From Deltaproteobacteria bacterium (GTDB lineage Bacteria; Desulfobacterota; Desulfobaccia; Desulfobaccales; 0-14-0-80-60-11): a stretch of DNA of 47,067 nucleotides. This document shows, one piece after another, positions 6,812 to 43,261 of this stretch. The position numbers were made by a program, and so were the translations under genes. The number at the start of each line of letters is the position of its first letter. Within the stretch, counting starts at the first letter, position 1. The stretch spans positions 1 through 47,067 of the forward strand of contig JASEFS010000029.1 of the NCBI GenBank assembly GCA_030018495.1, in the 5' to 3' direction. A model generated the notes under the pieces. The model searched no databases. It had not been told where the DNA came from and was given only the letters and a program-made list of their open reading frames with translations.

Positions 6812-7423
6812 ATGATGAAAGACCCTTCGGCGCCAGCCTTTCTCCGCGAATACGGCCGCTTTTCCCTGGTAAGCCTGGGGTGCGGTCGGCGGCTCAATCG
6901 CATTGATAATCACCTGCGCCTGATGACCGCTTTGGGTCTCACCTATTATGTCGGCATTGACTGCGTGCCGCACATCGAGCCGCCGTCTGCCGCGATATTT
7001 CAGGATGCCGAGGCCATGGCGGCATTGTTGGCAAGATATTACCGGGGCGAGCCGCAAAAGTTTTGCGAAGCCGTAAAACTCTTTCCGGCAACCTGGGTGG
7101 AGGAACTGCACGGCATCCCTTGTGCGGCTGTAGTCTGTCAGAGAGTATTTCCGGATTGCCGCTGGGAAGAAGTCATCTGTTCCATGAACCCGCAACTGGT
7201 GCTCCAGGAGGACCTCCACGGCTGCGAACGGCAGCAGCTTCGGGGCCGGGGGTATGTGCGGACCTGGACCAAAATCCGCGGCTACGGCTTGCAGCCTTTT
7301 CGACCCATCTTCCCCTGGGAGCGCAATCTGGTCCTCTGGCGGCGTCTGGATTTCGGCGGCGAAGAGGTGGAGTCGAGCCGGTGGAAGGTGCTCTGGCGGC
7401 TGGCCGAGCGGTTGATCGGCTGA
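6812..7423 (+). CDS. hypothetical protein, methyltransferase-like N-terminus
   Basis: This 203-residue protein is of no firmly recognised family. The N-terminus contains VSLGCGRRLNRIDN (about 19-32) and, some 20 residues later, YYVGIDCVPHIEP. That order resembles motif I (glycine-rich SAM loop) and motif II (acidic end of beta2) of class I methyltransferases, so a SAM-binding fold is possible but unproven. The C-terminal third is rich in Trp and Arg. The last 67 codons and the stop lie inside a 339-bp sequence that is duplicated in tandem immediately downstream, leaving this copy intact. The start is the first of two adjacent ATG codons; no clear ribosome binding site is seen. Confidence 0.6.
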   Translation: MMKDPSAPAFLREYGRFSLVSLGCGRRLNRIDNHLRLMTALGLTYYVGIDCVPHIEPPSAAIFQDAEAMAALLARYYRGEPQKFCEAVKLFPATWVEELHGIPCAAVVCQRVFPDCRWEEVICSMNPQLVLQEDLHGCERQQLRGRGYVRTWTKIRGYGLQPFRPIFPWERNLVLWRRLDFGGEEVESSRWKVLWRLAERLIG

Positions 7424-7899
7424 AAATTTACCAGGAAATTATTTGGGCAGAGGCTCATGAGTTCTTGGCTCTTTGAAACCTGAAAAGGATCGGCGGCGCG
7501 GTCCTCACCTGTGCCATCTTAATGCCCCGGCGGGATGCGCTTCGCTTTCCCGCCCTACTACTGCGAACGGCAGCAGCTTCGGGGCCGGGGGTATGTGCGG
7601 ACCTGGACCAAAATCCGCGGCTACGGCTTGCAGCCTTTTCGACCCATCTTCCCCTGGGAGCGCAATCTGGTCCTCTGGCGGCGTCTGGATTTCGGCGGCG
7701 AAGAGGTGGAGTCGAGCCGGTGGAAGGTGCTCTGGCGGCTGGCCGAGCGGTTGATCGGCTGAAAATTTACCAGGAAATTATTTGGGCAGAGGCTCATGAG
7801 TTCTTGGCTCTTTGAAACCTGAAAAGGATCGGCGGCGCGGTCCTCACCTGTGCCATCTTAATGCCTTGGCGGGATGCGCTTCGCTTTCCCGCCCTACTA
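7222..7899. repeat. 339-bp tandem duplication (two units)
   Basis: Unit 1 is 7222-7560 and unit 2 is 7561-7899. By eye they are identical except for CC versus TT at 7526-7527 and 7865-7866. Each unit contains the 3' end and stop codon of the hypothetical gene plus about 140 bp of downstream sequence, ending in a hairpin-forming motif with arms GGCGGGA and TCCCGCC. The near-identity implies a very recent event, or an assembly artefact. Confidence 0.95.
7561..7762 (+). pseudogene. duplicated 3' fragment of the hypothetical gene at 6812
   Basis: This stretch repeats the final 66 or so codons and the stop of the upstream gene, as part of unit 2 of the tandem duplication. It lacks the N-terminal portion. 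An in-frame ATG at 7535 inside unit 1 would permit a 75-residue product, but there is no ribosome binding site and the first residues come from intergenic sequence. I treat it as a gene fragment. Confidence 0.8.
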
Positions 7900-36686: not shown

Positions 36687-36728
36687 GCCCCCGTAGCTCA
36701 GTAATGGATAGAGCAACGGATTCCTAAT
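36687..36728 (+). pseudogene. tRNA-Arg 5'-half, left attachment site
   Basis: These 42 bp are identical to positions 43183-43224 of the complete tRNA-Arg(CCT), from the first acceptor base to the anticodon loop. The 3' half is missing; element DNA follows. It is the left att core and keeps the original tRNA promoter upstream. Confidence 0.93.
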
Positions 36729-36736
36729 GCTATCAG

Positions 36737-36773
36737 GCCCCTAAGTGAGATTGTCAGGAGAGCACTTAGGGGC
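36737..36773 (+). terminator. perfect 11-bp hairpin just inside the element
   Basis: GCCCCTAAGTG (36737-36747) pairs perfectly with CACTTAGGGGC (36763-36773) around a 15-nt loop, followed by TTGATTTTATT. It lies 8 bp after the tRNA half and would probably end, or cap, transcription from the orphaned tRNA promoter. The T-tract is interrupted, so termination is plausible rather than certain. Confidence 0.6.
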
Positions 36774-36837
36774 TTGATTTTATTAGATAAGAGTAAATCA
36801 GGCATAGCTCTTGCACAAAGCGGTATTACCGGCGTTT

Positions 36838-36860
36838 TAGACACCTATATGGACACCATG
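36838..36860. repeat. 23-bp end repeat, left copy (candidate integrase arm site)
   Basis: This is identical over 23 bp to 43113-43135, in the same orientation. It lies about 110 bp inside the left att core, while the other copy lies about 50 bp inside the right att core. An arm-type recombinase binding role is inferred from position. Confidence 0.65.
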
Positions 36861-36923
36861 CCCGGCCCCTCTGAGTCAGGTATCATAAGGCCCTTAGCCC
36901 AAGAGAGGGCATAGCAGAGACAC

Positions 36924-36985
36924 CACAGGCGGCAACTCCCACAGACCACACCCCCACAGGCGGCAACTCCCACAGACCACACCCC
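36924..36985. repeat. two perfect 31-bp tandem repeats
   Basis: Units 36924-36954 and 36955-36985 are identical, each containing GGCGGCAACTCCCACAGACC. Only two units exist and there is no spacer structure, so this is not a CRISPR array. Its role is unknown. Confidence 0.9.
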
Positions 36986-37161
36986 CACACCCCCGGCCCC
37001 CGGTACAAGCCCGGCCCCCGCCTGAAAAGCTGATTTTCACCCGTAGGCCCCTGGCAAGTTTTCTCTCCCATTCGCCACGTTTGCGGCGGCGCTTACCACC
37101 TGAAAAATAACAGGTGAATCAGTGGGTTACGGGAAAAGACGAGTCAAAAAACGAGTAGACC

Positions 37162-37190
37162 TTGACAACGGCGGTCATTTGAGGTAAGTT
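37162..37190 (+). promoter_or_regulatory. sigma-70-like promoter before the first HTH gene
   Basis: TTGACA (37162-37167), a 17-bp spacer and TAAGTT (37185-37190). The -35 is perfect and the -10 is weak. The start would fall near 37197, immediately at the base of the hairpin-terminator at 37198. Confidence 0.55.
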
Positions 37191-37197
37191 TTGAACA

Positions 37198-37232
37198 CCC
37201 GCTCAGAAGAAATCCTGAGTGGGATTTTTTTT
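37198..37232 (+). terminator. intrinsic terminator directly after a promoter (attenuator-like)
   Basis: The stem CCCGCTCAG (37198-37206) / CTGAGTGGG (37215-37223) has 9 pairs including one G-U and an 8-nt loop. It is followed by A and eight T residues. It lies between the promoter at 37162 and the HTH gene at 37269, so transcripts from that promoter should stop after about 35 nt unless relieved. Confidence 0.8.
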
Positions 37233-37268
37233 GCCCTAAATTTTAGTGCCAAAGGAGGCAATAACAAA

Positions 37269-37478
37269 GTGGAGAACGGCGGCAATGGTAATGTGGCGGG
37301 GCGGCTGCTTAGTGTCAAAGAGGCGGCGGCATACCTGGGGCTTTCAAAGCAAACCGTTTACAATTGGCGATCCCAAGGCCGTGTGGCCTATGTGAAATTA
37401 GGGCGGCGGGTGTTATTCCGGCCCGCTGACCTGGACAAGCTCATTGAGGGCGGGCTTAAAGAAGTGAGGGGCTGCTAA
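37269..37478 (+). CDS. excisionase-like helix-turn-helix protein (HTH 1)
   Basis: This 69-residue protein uses GTG 37269, which has AAAGGAGG 10 nt upstream; the frame extends further but overlaps a terminator. After a Gly/Asn-rich start comes a MerR/excisionase-type HTH_17 domain: LLSVKEAAAYLGLSKQTVYN, then WRSQGRVAYVKLGRRVLFRP. The final segment supplies the wing. Such proteins direct excision or repress element genes. Its stop overlaps the next start (TAATG at 37476), so the two are translationally coupled. A promoter and terminator pair upstream suggests attenuation control. Confidence 0.85.
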   Translation: MENGGNGNVAGRLLSVKEAAAYLGLSKQTVYNWRSQGRVAYVKLGRRVLFRPADLDKLIEGGLKEVRGC

Positions 37479-37966
37479 TGGCTGCCCTTCCTCTTGCCCC
37501 CATTGCTATTGGGCTGACTGTGGCTTCCGGTCTTGTCTCCGGTGTGGGGCAGTTTATGACCATGCGGAGTCAGGCGGCGGCGGCTGAGTACAAAGCCGAA
37601 GTCGAACAGAGACAGGCCGTGGCAGCCCGGCGCATGGGTGACATTGAACAACAGAAGCTCAGAGAGGAAGCCAGAGCCTTGCGTGGCCGTCAAATGGCCC
37701 TCTACGGTAAGTCAGGCGTAGAGCTTGAGGGCAGCCCCCTCCTGATCATGGGGGAGTCGGCCTACAGAGCAGCCCGTGACGTGGCAGTTGCCAGAGAGAG
37801 TGCTCAGTGGAATGCCCGGCTGTATGAGGCCCAAGGGCAGATTTACAGCATGGGGGCGGACACACTGAATAAGGGGGCGGGCTTCGCCTTGGGGGGGTCA
37901 CTTCTGACCACTGGGGCAAGTGCCTTTTCCATGGCGAAAAAGACAGGAGTGCTCCCAAACTATTAG
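37478..37966 (+). CDS. phage internal-virion-protein-like (T7 gp14-type) protein
   Basis: This 162-residue protein starts with a hydrophobic, Gly/Ala-rich helix (IAIGLTVASGLVSGVGQF). An Ala/Gln/Glu-rich coiled coil (about 30-75) follows. The segment LRGRQMALYGKSGVELEGSP then continues with a MGESAYRAARDVAVARE stretch, and a second hydrophobic Gly-rich region (GFALGGSLLTTGASAF) lies near the C-terminus. This arrangement, and the pattern of a chain that becomes GRQ..L...GV.L.GSPL, is characteristic of small phage virion-core or internal proteins. The assignment is by pattern memory, not search. No other structural gene is in the element, so it may help a satellite use a helper capsid. Confidence 0.6.
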   Translation: MAALPLAPIAIGLTVASGLVSGVGQFMTMRSQAAAAEYKAEVEQRQAVAARRMGDIEQQKLREEARALRGRQMALYGKSGVELEGSPLLIMGESAYRAARDVAVARESAQWNARLYEAQGQIYSMGADTLNKGAGFALGGSLLTTGASAFSMAKKTGVLPNY

Positions 37967-38068
37967 TGCCAAAGGGCAGAGGGGGCGGGGGGAAGCATCC
38001 AGGCGGGCGCATCACCTAACACCGTGGCCCTATCCCCCGGCCCCCCACTGACAAGGAGAATACTATCA

Positions 38069-38491
38069 ATGGCCGCATATCTGGCCGGGAAGGTCACACC
38101 GGCCCCTGAATGGCTGATATTCTTTAGGTTCGCTAAAAAGCATTGCTGCAACTACTCTGCCACAGGCCCGATGCAGAAGCGGCACTATTGCTGGTTAGGC
38201 CCACCAAAAACCGATAATATCTGTGTCCTCTTATCGGGCGGCTCTTGCAAGTGGTTCAGAGAGGCCGTCCTGCCTCTGGACAAGGCTCTTGAACAGGAAT
38301 GGGAACGGCTGAGACAGCTTGCCTCAGACAGCAGCCCTCTGCCCTGGACTAAGCGGGAGCGGGTTTGCCTCTGTGGGGAGAGGTTCGTTCCCCGCTCTAA
38401 CAGGCAGCTAAGGTGTGAGCAATGCAGCAAGGCGCACCGGCAAGAACAGCTTAGGAAGGCTAAGAGAAAACAGAGAGCAAAAGAGGTCTAA
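38069..38491 (+). CDS. Cys-rich protein with C-terminal zinc-knuckle motif
   Basis: This 140-residue protein starts at an ATG with AAGGAG upstream. The N-terminal half has scattered cysteines (C26, C27, C41, C52, C60) around CWLGPPKTDNICVLLSGG. The C-terminal part has a clear zinc-binding pattern C100-x-C102 then C116-x2-C119 (VCLCGERFVPRSNRQLRCEQ, then C119), followed by a very basic Lys/Arg tail. Similar CxC...CxxC modules with basic tails occur in phage and plasmid nucleic-acid-binding proteins. No specific family is recognised. It lies between the virion-like gene and RNase H, 195 bp before the latter. Confidence 0.7.
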   Translation: MAAYLAGKVTPAPEWLIFFRFAKKHCCNYSATGPMQKRHYCWLGPPKTDNICVLLSGGSCKWFREAVLPLDKALEQEWERLRQLASDSSPLPWTKRERVCLCGERFVPRSNRQLRCEQCSKAHRQEQLRKAKRKQRAKEV

Positions 38492-38686
38492 CTGTCAACA
38501 CTTAGAGCTTCCAAGTACCTATTATCATTATGGAAAAAAGGGGCATTTTCGACACCCCTGTGGGTTACTATTCGTTTCATTCTCTAAGTGATGACATAGC
38601 CCGTGAGACGTTGCCATGAGGCGTGAGAATGGGCTGCATCCCCGGCGTGGCGACTACCCCTCCCGGCCCCGGTGAAAGGAGAATCA

Positions 38687-39112
38687 ATGGACAGTGGCGG
38701 ATGGTACACCCTCTATGCGGACGGCGCTTGCCGGGGGAATCCCGGCCCTGGGGGAATCGGCGCTGTGCTCATGGCCCCTAACGGTGTGCTCACGGCTGAG
38801 GCAGCGGAGTATATCGGCCCCGTGACGAATAACATTGCTGAATGGCAGGCCCTCATTATGGGCTTGAGGCTTGCCCTTGAGCATGGAGTCCGCAAGCTCC
38901 ATATCAAAATGGATTCACAGCTTGTGGTGCGCCAAGTGACAGGGGAATATGAGGTTAAGAAGCAACACTTGAAGCCCCTCTATACTGAGGCCATGGGCTT
39001 GCTCAGGCGCTTTGCCGACTACCGCATTGAGCACATAAGGCGTGAGGATAACGGGCCGGCGGACGCTCTGGCAAATGCGGCCATTGACAAGGCAATGCGG
39101 GAAAGGAGTTAG
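38687..39112 (+). CDS. ribonuclease HI-family protein
   Basis: This 141-residue protein starts at an ATG 5 nt after AAAGGAG. The catalytic carboxylates are in place: D12 in YADGACRGNPG, E52 in NIAEWQALI, D76 in KMDSQLVV and D126 in NGPADALAN. The length and the GNPGPGGIGAV loop match the short RNase HI-like (RnhA/RNH) class that lacks the basic protrusion. It cleaves RNA in RNA-DNA hybrids and could process replication primers of the element. It ends one base before the PrimPol-like gene, whose ribosome binding site lies in its 3' end, so the two are coupled. It appears fully active, unlike its neighbour. Confidence 0.92.
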   Translation: MDSGGWYTLYADGACRGNPGPGGIGAVLMAPNGVLTAEAAEYIGPVTNNIAEWQALIMGLRLALEHGVRKLHIKMDSQLVVRQVTGEYEVKKQHLKPLYTEAMGLLRRFADYRIEHIRREDNGPADALANAAIDKAMRERS

Positions 39113-39113
39113 C

Positions 39114-40223
39114 ATGGCGAAGCGGGTATATATGCCAGTGAGTACAGACCCGGATACATTTATCCCTGACAACCTTGACACTTGCGCCAAGTGCGCACCT
39201 GTTCCCCCTCTGCTATTTCCCCCGAAAATAGACAGCATTCCGGGTGAACTAAGGCTGCGGCCCCAGTGGGTAGGCTTCACGTGGCCCGGCAAGAAGCCTG
39301 TGAATCCGGCAACCGGGAAGCGGGCTAAGACAAGTGAGCCTGGCACATGGGGCGGCTTCAATGAGGCCGTGGAACTGTGGCAGGCAGGCCGGGGGAAGGG
39401 CATCGGCGGCGTGGGGTATGTGACCTCCCCCGATGATCCTTTTTGCGGAGTCAACCTGAATGATTGCCGCAACCCGGAAACAGGGGAGATTGCACCTTGG
39501 GCTGAGGCCATAATCAAGCGGCTGAACTCCTATACTGAGATAACCCCTTCCGGCTGTGGGGTGCTTATCCTGGTAAGGGGAAAGCTGCCCTTTACCAGAG
39601 GGCGGAAGGCCCGGAGTCAGGGCGGCGGCGTGGCGATGCACTGTGGAAAGCATTACTTCGCCATTACCGGGCGGCATCTGCCAGGAACCCCTATCCTCAT
39701 TCATAATCGCCAAAGTCGGCTTGCGGCCCTCTATTGGGATAGCCTCAGTTGGGAGAGGGAAGCGGCAACTACCTCAGCAGCCTCACAAGCCCCCGGCCCT
39801 CACCCCGGCCCTCACCCCGGTGAAGGCTCTCCCGGCCCCCTCAGTAGAGAGGAATTGAAGTCATTGGCCGGGACTTTGCGGCGGCATAGGCGTGAAACGG
39901 CGGACATTGAGTACTACCTGCAAGCTCTGAATCGGGCGGGCGGCTCTCTAACAGAGGATGACATTAGCCGCATTGCCCGAAGCATCGGGAAGCGGCCCCC
40001 TGGATTGACGTGGAAGGGTGATCCACAGGCGGCAAGGCAGGCCCTTGAGAAGTTAGGGGGCGGGCGCAAGTGGGTAGGCCCCAAGGAGCTAATAGGGCAG
40101 ATTATGGCTGACCAGAATTGCAGCGAAAAAACTGCAAGGGCGGCTATCGCCAAAGCTGCTAATTATCCCTTCCGCTACATAGTGAAGGGGAAGAATGGCC
40201 GCAAGGGGTATAAGCTGAGGTAG
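39114..40223 (+). CDS. PrimPol-like protein with substituted catalytic motifs
   Basis: This 369-residue protein starts at an ATG with AAAGGAG upstream. Residues 45-205 follow the phage primase-polymerase pattern: LRPQWVGFTW, GIGGVGYV, then GVNLNDC (112-118), SYTEITPSGCGVLILVRGKLP (split: SYTEITPSGCG, VLILVRGKLP) and AMHCGKHYFAITGRHLPGTP. In active relatives these read G[VI]DLD, SGxGxH and MYDxGRYF. Here Asp-x-Asp is Asn114-x-Asn116, the His is Leu151, and the third-motif Asp is Cys177. The C-terminus (about 260-369) is helical with a winged-helix-like end (QNCSEKTARAAIAKAA). There is no helicase domain. Catalytic loss is inferred; nucleic-acid binding may persist. Confidence 0.75.
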   Translation: MAKRVYMPVSTDPDTFIPDNLDTCAKCAPVPPLLFPPKIDSIPGELRLRPQWVGFTWPGKKPVNPATGKRAKTSEPGTWGGFNEAVELWQAGRGKGIGGVGYVTSPDDPFCGVNLNDCRNPETGEIAPWAEAIIKRLNSYTEITPSGCGVLILVRGKLPFTRGRKARSQGGGVAMHCGKHYFAITGRHLPGTPILIHNRQSRLAALYWDSLSWEREAATTSAASQAPGPHPGPHPGEGSPGPLSREELKSLAGTLRRHRRETADIEYYLQALNRAGGSLTEDDISRIARSIGKRPPGLTWKGDPQAARQALEKLGGGRKWVGPKELIGQIMADQNCSEKTARAAIAKAANYPFRYIVKGKNGRKGYKLR

Positions 40224-40728
40224 TGGTAGTTGCCACGTTGCCGCCCAGTGAATTTATGCACATTTATGCAGGGATAAGCGAATTTATACGGATTTAAGTG
40301 TATAAAATTCAGGCGGGAAATAATGAACATAGGTGCATTACAAAAGAATCGTGGAATTGCTGAGGAAATCGCTAACCTCTTGATATTAAAAAACATCAGC
40401 GAAATCTAAAATATGGCAGAAATATCAATGACTTATGTCTTATACTCGTTAACACGGTTATAGTATCATAACATATTGGAATCATAGCAGAAATTAGCTT
40501 TTTGGCGATTCAATCTCCGTTATGGTATTTGGGCCAAGGCCCGTTTACCGGAATTTACCTGTTAGCGAAGTGCAGAAGTGCAGTATTACAATAATAGCAT
40601 ATTCTTTAGTGCAGAAGTGCAGTTTAGCATATTCTTTACTCCTAATAGCATAAATGCTATTAGGACACGGGAAGCAAGTGATCTGAACGGCGGCGGTAGT
40701 TTCCAGCGGTAGTTTCCACGGGGGAAAA
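40224..40728. other. AT-rich noncoding region, candidate replication origin
   Basis: This 505-bp AT-rich gap follows the PrimPol-like gene in an otherwise GC-rich element. It contains repeated ATTTATGCA/GAATTTAT motifs at 40250-40290 and the iteron-palindrome cluster at 40569-40664. A 28-codon frame at 40323-40409 has only a weak GGCGGG site before it and is not called as a gene. Confidence 0.6.
40569..40664. repeat. iteron-like repeats and perfect palindrome
   Basis: The 16-mer AGTGCAGAAGTGCAGT occurs at 40569-40584 and 40608-40623; each is itself a pair of AGTGCAGW units. TAGCATATTCTTTA occurs at 40595-40608 and 40625-40638. A perfect palindrome, CCTAATAGCAT-AA-ATGCTATTAGG, follows at 40641-40664. 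Ordered direct repeats next to a palindrome in AT-rich DNA suit an origin or an operator for the HTH gene 65 bp downstream. Confidence 0.85.
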
Positions 40729-40926
40729 ATGGAACGAATTGAACAATACCTCAGCACGGCGTATGTAGCAACCATGATGCTTTGCAGCCCCACCACTGTT
40801 GTTAGGTGGATAAAGGCGGGCAAGCTCAAGGCCGTGAGGGTAGGGAAGCGGGGGCGCTATCGTATCCCCATGTCTGCTTTGGAGGCCCTGACCATGCAGC
40901 CAATAGGGGCGGGGGAGGGGCGGTAG
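40729..40926 (+). CDS. excisionase-like helix-turn-helix protein (HTH 2)
   Basis: This 65-residue protein starts at an ATG preceded by GGGGGAAAA. It is almost entirely an HTH_17 domain: YLSTAYVATMMLCSPTTVVR forms the helices, with WIKAGKLKAVRVGKRGRYRI as the recognition and wing part. The W-x-x-x-G-K-L pattern is shared with the third HTH gene and differs in detail from the first. It follows the iteron and palindrome cluster, which may hold its operator. Repressor, excisionase or replication initiator-accessory roles are all possible. Confidence 0.82.
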   Translation: MERIEQYLSTAYVATMMLCSPTTVVRWIKAGKLKAVRVGKRGRYRIPMSALEALTMQPIGAGEGR

Positions 40927-41437
40927 TTGCCGGGCGGGAGATACAAGGCCCAATCCCTCCCGAAAATGGAAAATGACCTGAAGGGGGTAGGTTGGGTAGG
41001 CGTTACCACCTGGGGCGGGGCTTGGGGGCGGGCGGGGGTATGGCCCGGAGTCCCAAAGCCATATATCCCCCTCGCCTAACCTATTGATATTATGGGATAT
41101 TCTTTGCGGACAGTGGCAGACAGGCGCTAACCCGCATGGTTAAGCGCAAGTGCATGGGTTCTGTACCCACAGCCCCGGCACTATTGAGAATAATTCGCAA
41201 TAAGGGGAGGCGTGGCTTGCCTGGGTAAGACATATCCCTATCACACCTTGCCCAAGCTGACATTGATCTTTGCCCCTCTGCCCTCATGTGAGGCATCAGG
41301 AGAGGCGATCTTTTGCAGTGAAGGGTAAGGGCAGGCTTGACGCTCTCAGGCTTCTGAAATGAGGGGGTGACAAAAAATGCTTGACACGGATGGAAACGTA
41401 TGGTAATGTAGCTACCAGTAAGAGCAAGGAAGCCAAT
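40927..41437. other. 511-bp noncoding gap with structured stretch
   Basis: I support no gene. The first 110 bp are very G-rich. Around 41125-41190 there are nested inverted repeats (GCGCTAACC...GGTTAAGCGC and TGGGT-TCTGT-ACCCA) that could fold in RNA, but no tRNA or known RNA is recognised. The promoter of the third HTH gene is at 41381-41409. Confidence 0.5.
41381..41409 (+). promoter_or_regulatory. sigma-70 promoter of the third HTH gene
   Basis: TTGACA (41381-41386), a 17-bp spacer and TAATGT (41404-41409), with an extended-10 TGG before it. A palindrome GTAGCTAC (41408-41415) spans the start region and could be an operator. The ATG at 41438 lies about 22 nt after the predicted start. Confidence 0.68.
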
Positions 41438-41626
41438 ATGAAACCCGAATCCCCCACACTTGAGAAGCTATACACCCCGGAGGAAGCGGCGGCGGTGCTG
41501 AGAGTCAAGCCCCGTACTATCATGGAATGGCTGAGGCAAGGCAAGCTCAAGGGGGTTAAGTTGGGCGGCAAGCTGTGGCGGATACGGGAGGCGGACTTGA
41601 GGGCATTCATTGAGCAAGGGCAGTAA
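41438..41626 (+). CDS. excisionase-like helix-turn-helix protein (HTH 3)
   Basis: This 62-residue protein starts at an ATG 7 nt after AAGGA; upstream in-frame codons overlap the promoter. The HTH_17 domain reads LYTPEEAAAVLRVKPRTIME, then WLRQGKLKGVKLGGKLWRIR, ending ADLRAFIEQ. It has the best consensus of the three and lies nearest the integrase, separated by one small gene. It is the likeliest recombination directionality factor. It has its own promoter with a palindrome at the start site, suggesting autoregulation (inference). Confidence 0.87.
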   Translation: MKPESPTLEKLYTPEEAAAVLRVKPRTIMEWLRQGKLKGVKLGGKLWRIREADLRAFIEQGQ

Positions 41627-41666
41627 CCCCCACGGGGGAAAACCATATCTTTAGGAGGGTAGAGCA

Positions 41667-41972
41667 ATGCAAACCTGGACAAGAGACGAATTTGGACACC
41701 TTCACATCCCGTTTCACTTCGGCCAAATTGAGGCTGAGGACAGCCCCGGCAACTTCCGCATGGTAATCAATGGGCATCCGGCATCCCGGCCATATCCCCT
41801 GCAAGTCACTGAGGAAACCCTGAATGATCTGGCCGCTAAGATTCAGACGGGGGTGCGCTTCCTTGACTTAGGGGAGATTATCAGGCGGGTGCAAGCCGAT
41901 CTAACAGCCCCATTGCCAGAGGGTGTACAGCCGTGGCCCCCACGTCCGGCTGACAGTGAAGGGCTGCATTAA
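41667..41972 (+). CDS. hypothetical protein of the element
   Basis: This 101-residue protein starts at an ATG 7 nt after GGAGGG. It is mostly polar with alternating strand-like segments at the start (HLHIPFHFGQI, FRMVINGHPAS) and a helix near EETLNDLAAKIQTG and LGEIIRRVQADL. No family is recognised and there is no signal peptide or membrane helix. It sits between the third HTH gene and the integrase with short gaps, so it probably belongs to their operon. Confidence 0.68.
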   Translation: MQTWTRDEFGHLHIPFHFGQIEAEDSPGNFRMVINGHPASRPYPLQVTEETLNDLAAKIQTGVRFLDLGEIIRRVQADLTAPLPEGVQPWPPRPADSEGLH

Positions 41973-41982
41973 GGAGGCACAC

Positions 41983-43173
41983 ATGGGCTTATTGGTAGAG
42001 TGTCCAAAGTGCCACAGGCGTAACAGCCCCAAGGCCAGGACTTGCAGAAGTGAGGGCTGTGGCTTCAATCTGAGCAAGTATTCTGGCCGGGTCTACTGGA
42101 TTGAATGGTACAACCTGGACGGTGAACGGGAGCGGAAACGTATAGGCCCCAATAAGGAAGCGGCTGAGCAAGAGCTACGGAGTAAGCTGAGTGCCAAGGC
42201 TGAGGGGCGGCATATCAAGAAGTCTCCCGATGCCAAAACCCGCTTTAAGGCCCTGGCAGAGTGGTATATAAAGCTGCCAGAGGTAAAGGCTAAGCACAGC
42301 TATAAGCGAGACGAACAGACCCTCAAGCGGCTTCAGCCCTACCTTGGGGAGCGGCTGCTAAAGGACATTACCCCGGCCACAGTGGAAGCCTACCGGCAAA
42401 AACGGCTGAGTGAACCGTCAGGGCGATCTCCTAAGAACCTGACCTGCCCGGCCACAGTGAACCGGGAGATAGCTTGCCTCAAGACCATCTTCAATAAGGC
42501 CATAAAGGACGGTAGGGCAGAGCACAATCCCTGCCAAGGAGTGAGGATGCTCAAGGAGAATAATGAACGGGATAGGGTGCTCAGCCTTGAGGAATATGCC
42601 CGGCTTCTGGCACATTGCCCGGCGCACCTAAAGCCCGTTGTCAAGCTGGCCTATCACACCGGCATGAGACAGGGGGAGATACTCAGCCTAACGTGGGGTG
42701 AGGTTGATCTGAGAGGGGGCTTTATCCACTTGCGGCCAGAGCACTGCAAGACTAAAGAGGGTAGGGCTATCCCCCTCAGCCGGGAAATGGTAGATATGCT
42801 CAAGGCCCTACGCCAAGGGCTGCCCTTACCCCAAGTGCAGGTATTCACCTATGCAGGGCGGTGCTCAGTGGGGTCTATCAAGCGGGCTTTCGTGTCAGCC
42901 GTCAAAAAGGCCGGTATTGAGGACTTCACTTTCCATGATCTAAGGCACACAGCTATAAACAACTGGCGGTTGCAGGGTCACGACTACTTCCGTATAATGG
43001 CGGCAACCGGCCACAAAACCCTGAGTGTGTTCAAGAGATATAACACAGTGTCCAAGGAAGAGCTCAAGGCCCTGGTAGGAGGTAGTCGCCAAGGAGAGAA
43101 AACCGGAAGCGATAGACACCTATATGGACACCATGAGAATTTGGACACCAAGCAAGAGGCCGTAAGTCATTGA
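41983..43173 (+). CDS. tyrosine recombinase (integrase) with N-terminal zinc ribbon
   Basis: This 396-residue protein starts at an ATG preceded by AAGGAGG. The first 27 residues form a zinc ribbon (C7, C10, C21, C26 in CPKC and CRSEGC). An AP2-like/arm-binding region, WIEWYNLDGERERKRIG, comes next. A SAM-like core-binding domain follows (about 80-180). The catalytic domain has R229 in HTGMRQGE, HDLRH with H318 and R321, H344 in TGHKTLS and nucleophile Y353 in FKRYN. All residues are present. It adjoins the complete tRNA-Arg only 9 bp downstream and should recombine the 42-bp att core. Its last codons contain a 23-bp repeat shared with the left end. Confidence 0.95.
   Translation: MGLLVECPKCHRRNSPKARTCRSEGCGFNLSKYSGRVYWIEWYNLDGERERKRIGPNKEAAEQELRSKLSAKAEGRHIKKSPDAKTRFKALAEWYIKLPEVKAKHSYKRDEQTLKRLQPYLGERLLKDITPATVEAYRQKRLSEPSGRSPKNLTCPATVNREIACLKTIFNKAIKDGRAEHNPCQGVRMLKENNERDRVLSLEEYARLLAHCPAHLKPVVKLAYHTGMRQGEILSLTWGEVDLRGGFIHLRPEHCKTKEGRAIPLSREMVDMLKALRQGLPLPQVQVFTYAGRCSVGSIKRAFVSAVKKAGIEDFTFHDLRHTAINNWRLQGHDYFRIMAATGHKTLSVFKRYNTVSKEELKALVGGSRQGEKTGSDRHLYGHHENLDTKQEAVSH
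43113..43135. repeat. 23-bp end repeat, right copy
   Basis: This is an exact copy of 36838-36860, in the same orientation, inside the last codons of the integrase gene and about 50 bp before the right att core. A further GGACACC follows at 43143. The position fits arm-type integrase sites, but this is inference. Confidence 0.65.
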
Positions 43174-43182
43174 AATCACTAA

Positions 43183-43261
43183 GCCCCCGTAGCTCAGTAA
43201 TGGATAGAGCAACGGATTCCTAATCCGTGTGTCCCGAGTTCGAGTCTCGGCGGGGGCGCCA
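43183..43261 (+). tRNA. tRNA-Arg(CCT), reconstituted at the right att site
   Basis: The acceptor stem GCCCCCG (43183-43189) pairs with CGGGGGC (43251-43257), followed by G and an encoded CCA (43259-43261). The anticodon stem CGGAT/ATCCG encloses TTCCTAA with anticodon CCT (43219-43221), reading AGG. The T-arm contains GAGTTCGAGTC. The first 42 bases are the att core brought by the element, and the rest is original chromosome. Only 9 bp separate it from the integrase stop, so its promoter must now lie in element DNA; a weak TTGGAC-N16-TAAGTC at 43141-43168 is one candidate. Confidence 0.96.

Follow-up and report, generated by a model that had tools for sequence, protein, structure and literature searches.

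A compact integrative element at a tRNA-Arg gene in Desulfobaccia, possibly a helper-dependent phage satellite

The element at the tRNA-Arg(CCT) gene

A small integrative element occupies a tRNA-Arg(CCT) gene in contig JASEFS010000029.1 of a Deltaproteobacteria bacterium from the class Desulfobaccia, a relative of sulfate reducers. The 47-kb stretch analysed is called the window, and all coordinates are positions in it. A perfect 42-bp repeat at 36687-36728 and 43183-43224 bounds this tRNA-Arg element, which is taken here as the stretch between the starts of the two repeats, measures 6496 bp and carries nine genes, all on the + strand (Table 1). That the element is real, intact and cleanly bounded is close to certain. 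An earlier, sequence-only reading of the window had proposed the 42-bp attachment (att) repeat; exact copies were found, and a script that joined the flanks rebuilt an empty site holding one intact tRNA-Arg(cct). The boundaries in that reading stand; to be added are arm-type sites at both ends and the side of insertion, the element lying 5' of the tRNA gene. The 3' half of tRNA-Arg(CCT) has a single match in the element's own genome, with no further copy detected; the sequence upstream of what is apparently the sole tRNA-Arg(CCT) gene is therefore now that of the element. The integrase frame stops 10 bp upstream of the tRNA, and transcription from the element may now extend into the tRNA gene. 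No close relative provided a strict empty site: the junction of tRNA-Arg with phosphofructokinase is nowhere else syntenic.

Gene calls were checked by hidden Markov model (HMM) scans against Pfam, PHROGs and NCBIfam, and the matches agree with the earlier reading on an intact zinc-ribbon integrase, three excisionase-like helix-turn-helix (HTH) genes, an RNase H and one virion-like gene. Every frame is open, most are preceded by a ribosome-binding site, and the stop of xis1 overlaps the start of the gp14-like gene (TAATG). The same scans of the element's genes found no capsid, portal, terminase, tail, helicase, or relaxase/conjugation family, in line with the claim that capsid, tail, terminase and helicase are absent. 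A scan with a defence library returned generic HTH matches only. The iteron cluster reported earlier is real as well: GTGCAGAAGTGCAG recurs at 40570 and 40609, TAGCATATTCTTTA recurs at 40595 and 40625, and the repeats lie together with the palindrome within a 39% GC stretch of the AT-rich gap at 40224-40728.

Table 1. Features of the tRNA-Arg element and its target gene (window coordinates)
Feature	Position	Strand	Description
attL	36687..36728	+	tRNA-Arg(CCT) 5' half, displaced 42-bp copy whose end falls in the anticodon loop; exact repeat of 43183-43224
Left arm-type site	36838..36860	+	TAGACACCTATATGGACACCATG; presumed integrase arm site (P' arm); exact copy at 43113; motif placed alike in sister elements
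C-rich tandem repeat	36923..36984	+	two 31-bp copies, non-coding, just inside the left end; repeat family D4
Terminator-like hairpin	37198..37223	+	upstream of first gene; pattern match only, hairpin number not above shuffles
xis1	37269..37478	+	HTH_17 excisionase/regulator; GTG start after ribosome site AAAGGAGG; Pfam HTH_17 4.4e-17, TIGR01764 9e-14
gp14-like gene	37478..37966	+	internal virion (ejection) protein, 162 aa; phrog_418 2.6e-23, positions 8-157 of 166
Cys-rich protein gene	38069..38491	+	phrog_32573 1.5e-6; homologues at C16, C50, G009, G019
RNase HI gene	38687..39112	+	Pfam RVT_3 1.7e-31; D/E/D/D residues present in sequence
AEP gene	39114..40223	+	apparent pseudoenzyme of NrS-1 PrimPol type, 369 aa; phrog_13901 2.5e-29; PriCT-like region, no helicase domain
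Iteron-like direct repeats	40568..40638	.	candidate origin or operator, from sequence
Perfect palindrome	40640..40665	.	TCCTAATAGCATAAATGCTATTAGGA; 26 bp, 12-bp arms, from sequence
xis2	40729..40926	+	HTH_17 excisionase/regulator; Pfam HTH_17 5.2e-12
xis3	41381..41626	+	HTH_17 excisionase/regulator; Pfam HTH_17 7.4e-18
orf8	41667..41972	+	101-aa orphan, 10 bp upstream of int; no family match in the HMM scans
int	41983..43173	+	zinc-ribbon tyrosine integrase; phrog_1 8e-69; catalytic residues intact
Right arm-type sites	43113..43149	+	P arm; GACACC copies at 43115, 43127 and 43144
attR	43183..43224	+	42-bp core within the intact tRNA gene; exact repeat
tRNA-Arg(CCT)	43183..43261	+	rebuilt by insertion; ARAGORN call, intact

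Several smaller observations concern the same stretch. The position of orf8 is occupied by an XRE gene in sister elements, and no homologue of orf8 was found in any other genome of the class. RNase H has a second, diverged copy in its own genome (C6:89320, 53% identity). Homologues of the Cys-rich gene lie in prophage-like fragments of the same genome (G000:C50:1-19000 and C16:61000-72266), which carry RecT, a RuvC-like resolvase, an endolysin and a very large polyvalent protein of over 3800 aa. The window has four pairs of repeats that are 20 bp or longer: the 42-bp att repeat, the 31-bp tandem, the arm repeat and a near-perfect 339-bp tandem duplication at 7222-7899, which covers a coding frame's 3' end together with the spacer after it. 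A 22-bp imperfect repeat around xis1 and the gp14-like gene (37234 and 37954) was considered as an insertion footprint and rejected, since chance alone would give about one exact match of 13 bp.

Integrase, arm sites and related elements

The integrase of the tRNA-Arg element keeps all invariant residues of its clade, and its frame runs through the right arm sites, so that these code for the C-terminal ~25 residues. In many clade members, GACACC-N6-GACACC is found after the integrase stop codon. Full-length relatives with 60-72% identity are present in about half of 29 class genomes, and the clade adjoins nine tRNA isotypes, namely Arg (CCT, TCT, ACG, CCG), Leu (TAA, CAA), Cys, Phe and Asn, in some cases 5' and in others 3' of the tRNA. 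Among 2.9 million viral contigs the clade hardly occurs, and the best integrase matches in phage and plasmid records are at most about 31-34% identical. Many contigs with the clade (L020-L026, L043-L055) break off 0.6-2.5 kb upstream of the integrase gene, which might mean that the elements hinder assembly through strain variation or multiple copies.

Five related elements of 7.3-10.3 kb have exact att repeats. L075 (7298 bp, tRNA-Cys) and L077 (8499 bp, tRNA-Leu(TAA), in Desulfobacca acetoxidans) belong to the same integrase clade, while L078 (10122 bp, tRNA-Leu), L083 (G011:C15:4758-13389, about 8.6 kb, tRNA-Ala, with an exact 46-bp att) and L099 (about 10.3 kb, tRNA-Ala) have more distant integrases. 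No capsid was recognised in any of the five. In reconstructed attP order, the arms lie at -68/-56/-39 and +153/+165 in the tRNA-Arg element, at -40/-28 and +166/+178 in L075, and, as TTCACC repeats, at about -77 and +177 in L077; they thus flank the core at comparable distances in all three. These relatives with exact att repeats and no recognised capsid, two of them (7.3 and 8.5 kb) with matching arms and the more distant ones of 8.6-10.3 kb, and the near-absence of the integrase clade from viral contigs support the earlier view of a self-contained cassette and not a slice of a larger prophage.

Outside the recombination module the relatives vary. In L075 and the related locus L034, HTH_17 is accompanied by a PrimPol and by a second, large protein of replication type. 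L077 has an AAA ATPase, a zinc-finger primase, and ERCC4 and PC4 proteins besides HTH_17, and L099 has an AEP-helicase fusion and ERCC4. L083 combines HTH genes with a large terminase subunit (TerL), with no capsid or portal recognised, and is a satellite candidate in its own right. The Cys-rich gene recurs at two further loci (L097 and L098), and the ERCC4 nuclease and primase-helicase modules of the relatives occur in prophages too. The lineage has a common recombination module, and its replication and accessory parts are drawn from a pool that is partly shared with prophages. The conserved synteny of integrase, PrimPol and gp14 that the sequence-only reading proposed to look for was not found; the relatives have no more in common than the recombination module and some exchangeable components (Cys-rich, HTH_17 and the AEP domain). 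The tRNA-Arg element has the features that mark the lineage: an integrase of the zinc-ribbon clade, xxCACC-N6-xxCACC arms on both sides, and a core in the tRNA anticodon loop. These elements very likely form a Desulfobaccia-specific lineage that is apparently undescribed.

Two IMG/VR contigs matched the arm motif. One (L103) was set aside, its single match being near chance expectation. In the other (L104:3691-3949, IMGVR_UViG_3300010339_000336), two arm motifs flank the 3' half of a tRNA-Cys, like an attP or a tandem-element junction; the stretch lies beside Mu-like transposition genes, and the part of L104 examined holds no integrase.

An apparent PrimPol-like pseudoenzyme and a lone gp14-like ejection protein

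The PrimPol-like protein named in the earlier reading does belong to the AEP family, but it looks catalytically dead. AEP superfamily members bind catalytic metals through motifs I and III and the nucleotide through motif II (PMC5862659). Among 38 aligned relatives (10 from class genomes and 28 from viral contigs, some near-identical), all 38 have Asp at both motif-I sites and H, R or K at the motif-II position; the element's protein has Asn (N114, N116) and Leu (L151). Glu in motif III (31 of 37 relatives) is replaced by Ala (A174), and the Arg that follows it (33 of 37) by His (H180). An active AEP has DxD/E in motif I, sxH or a basic residue in motif II, and an acid in motif III, where this protein has NLN, L and A. 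Changing both motif-I Asp residues abolishes AEP activity: an archaeal relative in which DID was mutated to LIL has none (PMC5862659). The frame is nevertheless open across all 369 aa despite the replaced residues. Judged by its residues, the protein looks like a pseudoenzyme, and priming of replication by this gene cannot be assumed, since the catalytic side chains are replaced.

Its predicted fold is preserved. In an AlphaFold2 model, every block of residues 41-160 averages more than 90 in the predicted local distance difference test (pLDDT) score. The best structural matches of the model, as in the sequence search, are entries for the primase-polymerase of phage NrS-1 (PDB 6jon, 7rr3; E 2e-15), with which the protein shares the fold of the AEP core at 30% identity and 2.2 A over 167 columns. 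The element's protein differs from NrS-1 in its replaced catalytic residues and in the absence of the helicase domain. Most AEP relatives likewise have a helicase region, in a much longer frame. A further solved chain annotated as a DNA primase (7ola), which we take to be the SaPI5 primase-helicase, also aligns with it (4.6e-6).

The gp14-like protein stands alone. Its family, phrog_418, is present in 18 of 395 genomes of the phylum, and 12 of its 20 loci there share their contig with a T7-type portal gene (PF12236) at a distance of 6-12 kb. T7 gp14 exits the particle first and makes an outer-membrane pore (PMC8954989). The element's protein resembles it in belonging to the same internal virion family, in its small size and in its hydrophobic N-terminus, but comes without gp15, gp16, portal or capsid. 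It may supply, replace or block the corresponding protein of a helper. In the literature searched, no paper connects satellites with ejection proteins.

Its counterpart in genome G361, at 29% identity, offers a parallel. There, a 17.8-kb stretch (G361:C3:236744-254573; L148, L136) lies between two copies of a tRNA-SeC 3' end, with 24-bp att copies at 236744, 254550 and 259594. A tight gene run encodes DnaB, an HTH protein, a GNAT-like protein, gp14, a 1554-aa protein (phrog_9880) and a zinc-ribbon integrase; an excisionase/AlpA-like gene and a DnaD-like loader are also present. No capsid, portal or terminase was recognised in the 17.8-kb element. Neither G361 nor the genome carrying the tRNA-Arg element has a PF12236 portal anywhere, and G361 has no phrog_2 terminase. 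The G361 element is not closely related to the tRNA-Arg element and is a parallel, not a family member.

Mode of life

In layout the element resembles the PICMI (phage-inducible chromosomal minimalist islands) of Vibrionaceae, which the earlier reading did not name; that reading rightly held the gene set to be unlike those of PICI, P4, PLE and cfPICI. PICMI are about 5-7 kb, combine an integrase, an excisionase-like regulator and a primase gene, lack capsid-remodelling, terS, sid and ppi genes, and have an unknown small gene adjoining int, all as in the tRNA-Arg element. The published model requires int, alpA and prim together; PICMI lie beside fis, depend on their primase gene, and on induction by a helper phage are excised, replicated and packaged from concatemers (PMC10803314). 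In the tRNA-Arg element, int is present, the regulators match HTH_17 and TIGR01764 and not PF05930 (AlpA), and the AEP gene is present with its catalytic residues replaced. Its site is a tRNA anticodon loop and not fis, and gp14 and RNase H set it further apart. By our analysis the element is PICMI-like in layout but not a PICMI member, because its site is not fis and its primase, dead by sequence, is not intact.

PICI and SaPI have an integrase, an HTH regulator and an AEP-type replication protein, as here, but in the tRNA-Arg element no terS/cos/ppi/cpm module, helicase domain or PF05930 AlpA match was found, and all its genes are on one strand. Like the tRNA-Arg element, P4-like elements, PLE and cfPICI are small, integrated and furnished with genes for replication and integration; the tRNA-Arg element has none of psu, delta, sid and alpha, the PLE genes, or a capsid/packaging operon. 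Tycheposons and VEIMEs use a tyrosine recombinase, a tRNA target and helper particles; they live in different hosts and are set beside the element by description, not by sequence. Both groups are cited in PMC11389934.

The explanation that fits best, held with middling confidence, is that this is an intact Desulfobaccia-specific integrative element living as a helper-dependent, satellite-like parasite, presumably mobilised by phage. Helper dependence is suggested by the missing genes and by the relatives, and the Cys-rich gene common to the element and the resident prophage fragments C16 and C50 supports the same reading. The HTH_17 proteins would serve as regulator and recombination directionality factor and trigger excision. 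The AT-rich iteron/palindrome region would be the origin, where the dead AEP protein might bind DNA as initiator or decoy and not prime, while RNase H might trim transcript-derived primers or R-loops and the host or a helper phage would supply the replisome. Element DNA would exit in helper particles, most likely those of a short-tailed phage, and the gp14-like protein would contribute to these particles or block the helper.

Several points weigh against this explanation. No cos or pac site, terS or capsid-redirecting gene was recognised in the element. Its own genome offers no helper with a T7-type portal or a convincing terminase, one family of each having been sought. No excised or packaged form was found in IMG/VR or phage records, which does not decide satellite status. 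The exact gene set occurs in no other element. The roles given to RNase H, the iterons, the dead AEP and the gp14-like protein are ones we infer, and decay, too, would fit the dead primase, the lone gp14, the three HTH genes and a non-coding share of about 29%. IMG/VR lacks the right-hand junction pattern of the att core, and phage records held no match for gp14 or for the whole element DNA. Primase, integrase and gp14, each used as one protein against viral contigs, gave no match, alignments being needed as queries.

The main rival, rather doubtful on balance, is that the element is a decaying member of the same family, with integrase and att intact, replication and transfer failing, and gp14 as passenger debris. 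The loss of every catalytic AEP residue and of the helicase domain kept in the longer frame of most relatives is consistent with decay, as are a gp14 taken out of its usual gp14-gp15-gp16 set, three HTH_17 genes, and sparse coding with an AT-rich gap of 0.5 kb. Four separate substitutions in one active site, in a frame free of stops and frameshifts, go beyond what simple decay would predict, however, and the open frames, most with ribosome-binding sites, the overlap of gp14 with the end of xis1, the intact active sites of integrase and RNase H, and an att repeat still identical over 42 bp all argue against decay.

It is unlikely that the element is instead a non-satellite integrative element, an islet or mobilisable element spread by natural transformation, generalised transduction or conjugation, with its phage-like genes as passengers. 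Such an origin would agree with the scarcity of the integrase clade in viral contigs, its low identity to phage and plasmid integrases, and the wide variation of accessory genes among sisters. It sits poorly with the lack of any relaxase or conjugation gene among the families found, with relatives that carry TerL (L083) and modules that prophages have too (ERCC4 nuclease, primase-helicase), and with the Cys-rich gene shared with resident prophage fragments. An internal-deletion remnant of one larger podovirus prophage would account for a virion gene beside a phage-type primase domain but is very improbable, given similar-sized relatives with exact att, a seamless xis1-gp14 junction, an integrase clade not found in phages, and none of the portal and tail genes near which podoprophage gp14 sits in the phylum.

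If the element is indeed a helper-dependent satellite, it might even represent an undescribed mode of satellite life, a distinctly unlikely prospect in which an element with no capsid and no working primase uses its own gp14-like ejection protein to re-equip or sabotage helper particles and its dead PrimPol as an origin binder or a decoy for helper replication. The pseudo-PrimPol and the lone ejection protein would then be new tactics. Most well-studied satellites are those of enterobacteria, staphylococci, vibrios and marine bacteria, and helper transfer, if confirmed, would widen the host range of satellite life to the anaerobic Desulfobaccia, where one element of the lineage is in an assembly that corresponds to the cultured type strain of Desulfobacca acetoxidans. 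The integrase clade keeps a single arm-site design across nine tRNA isotypes and both sides of the gene, and provides a handle on how integrases change their targets.

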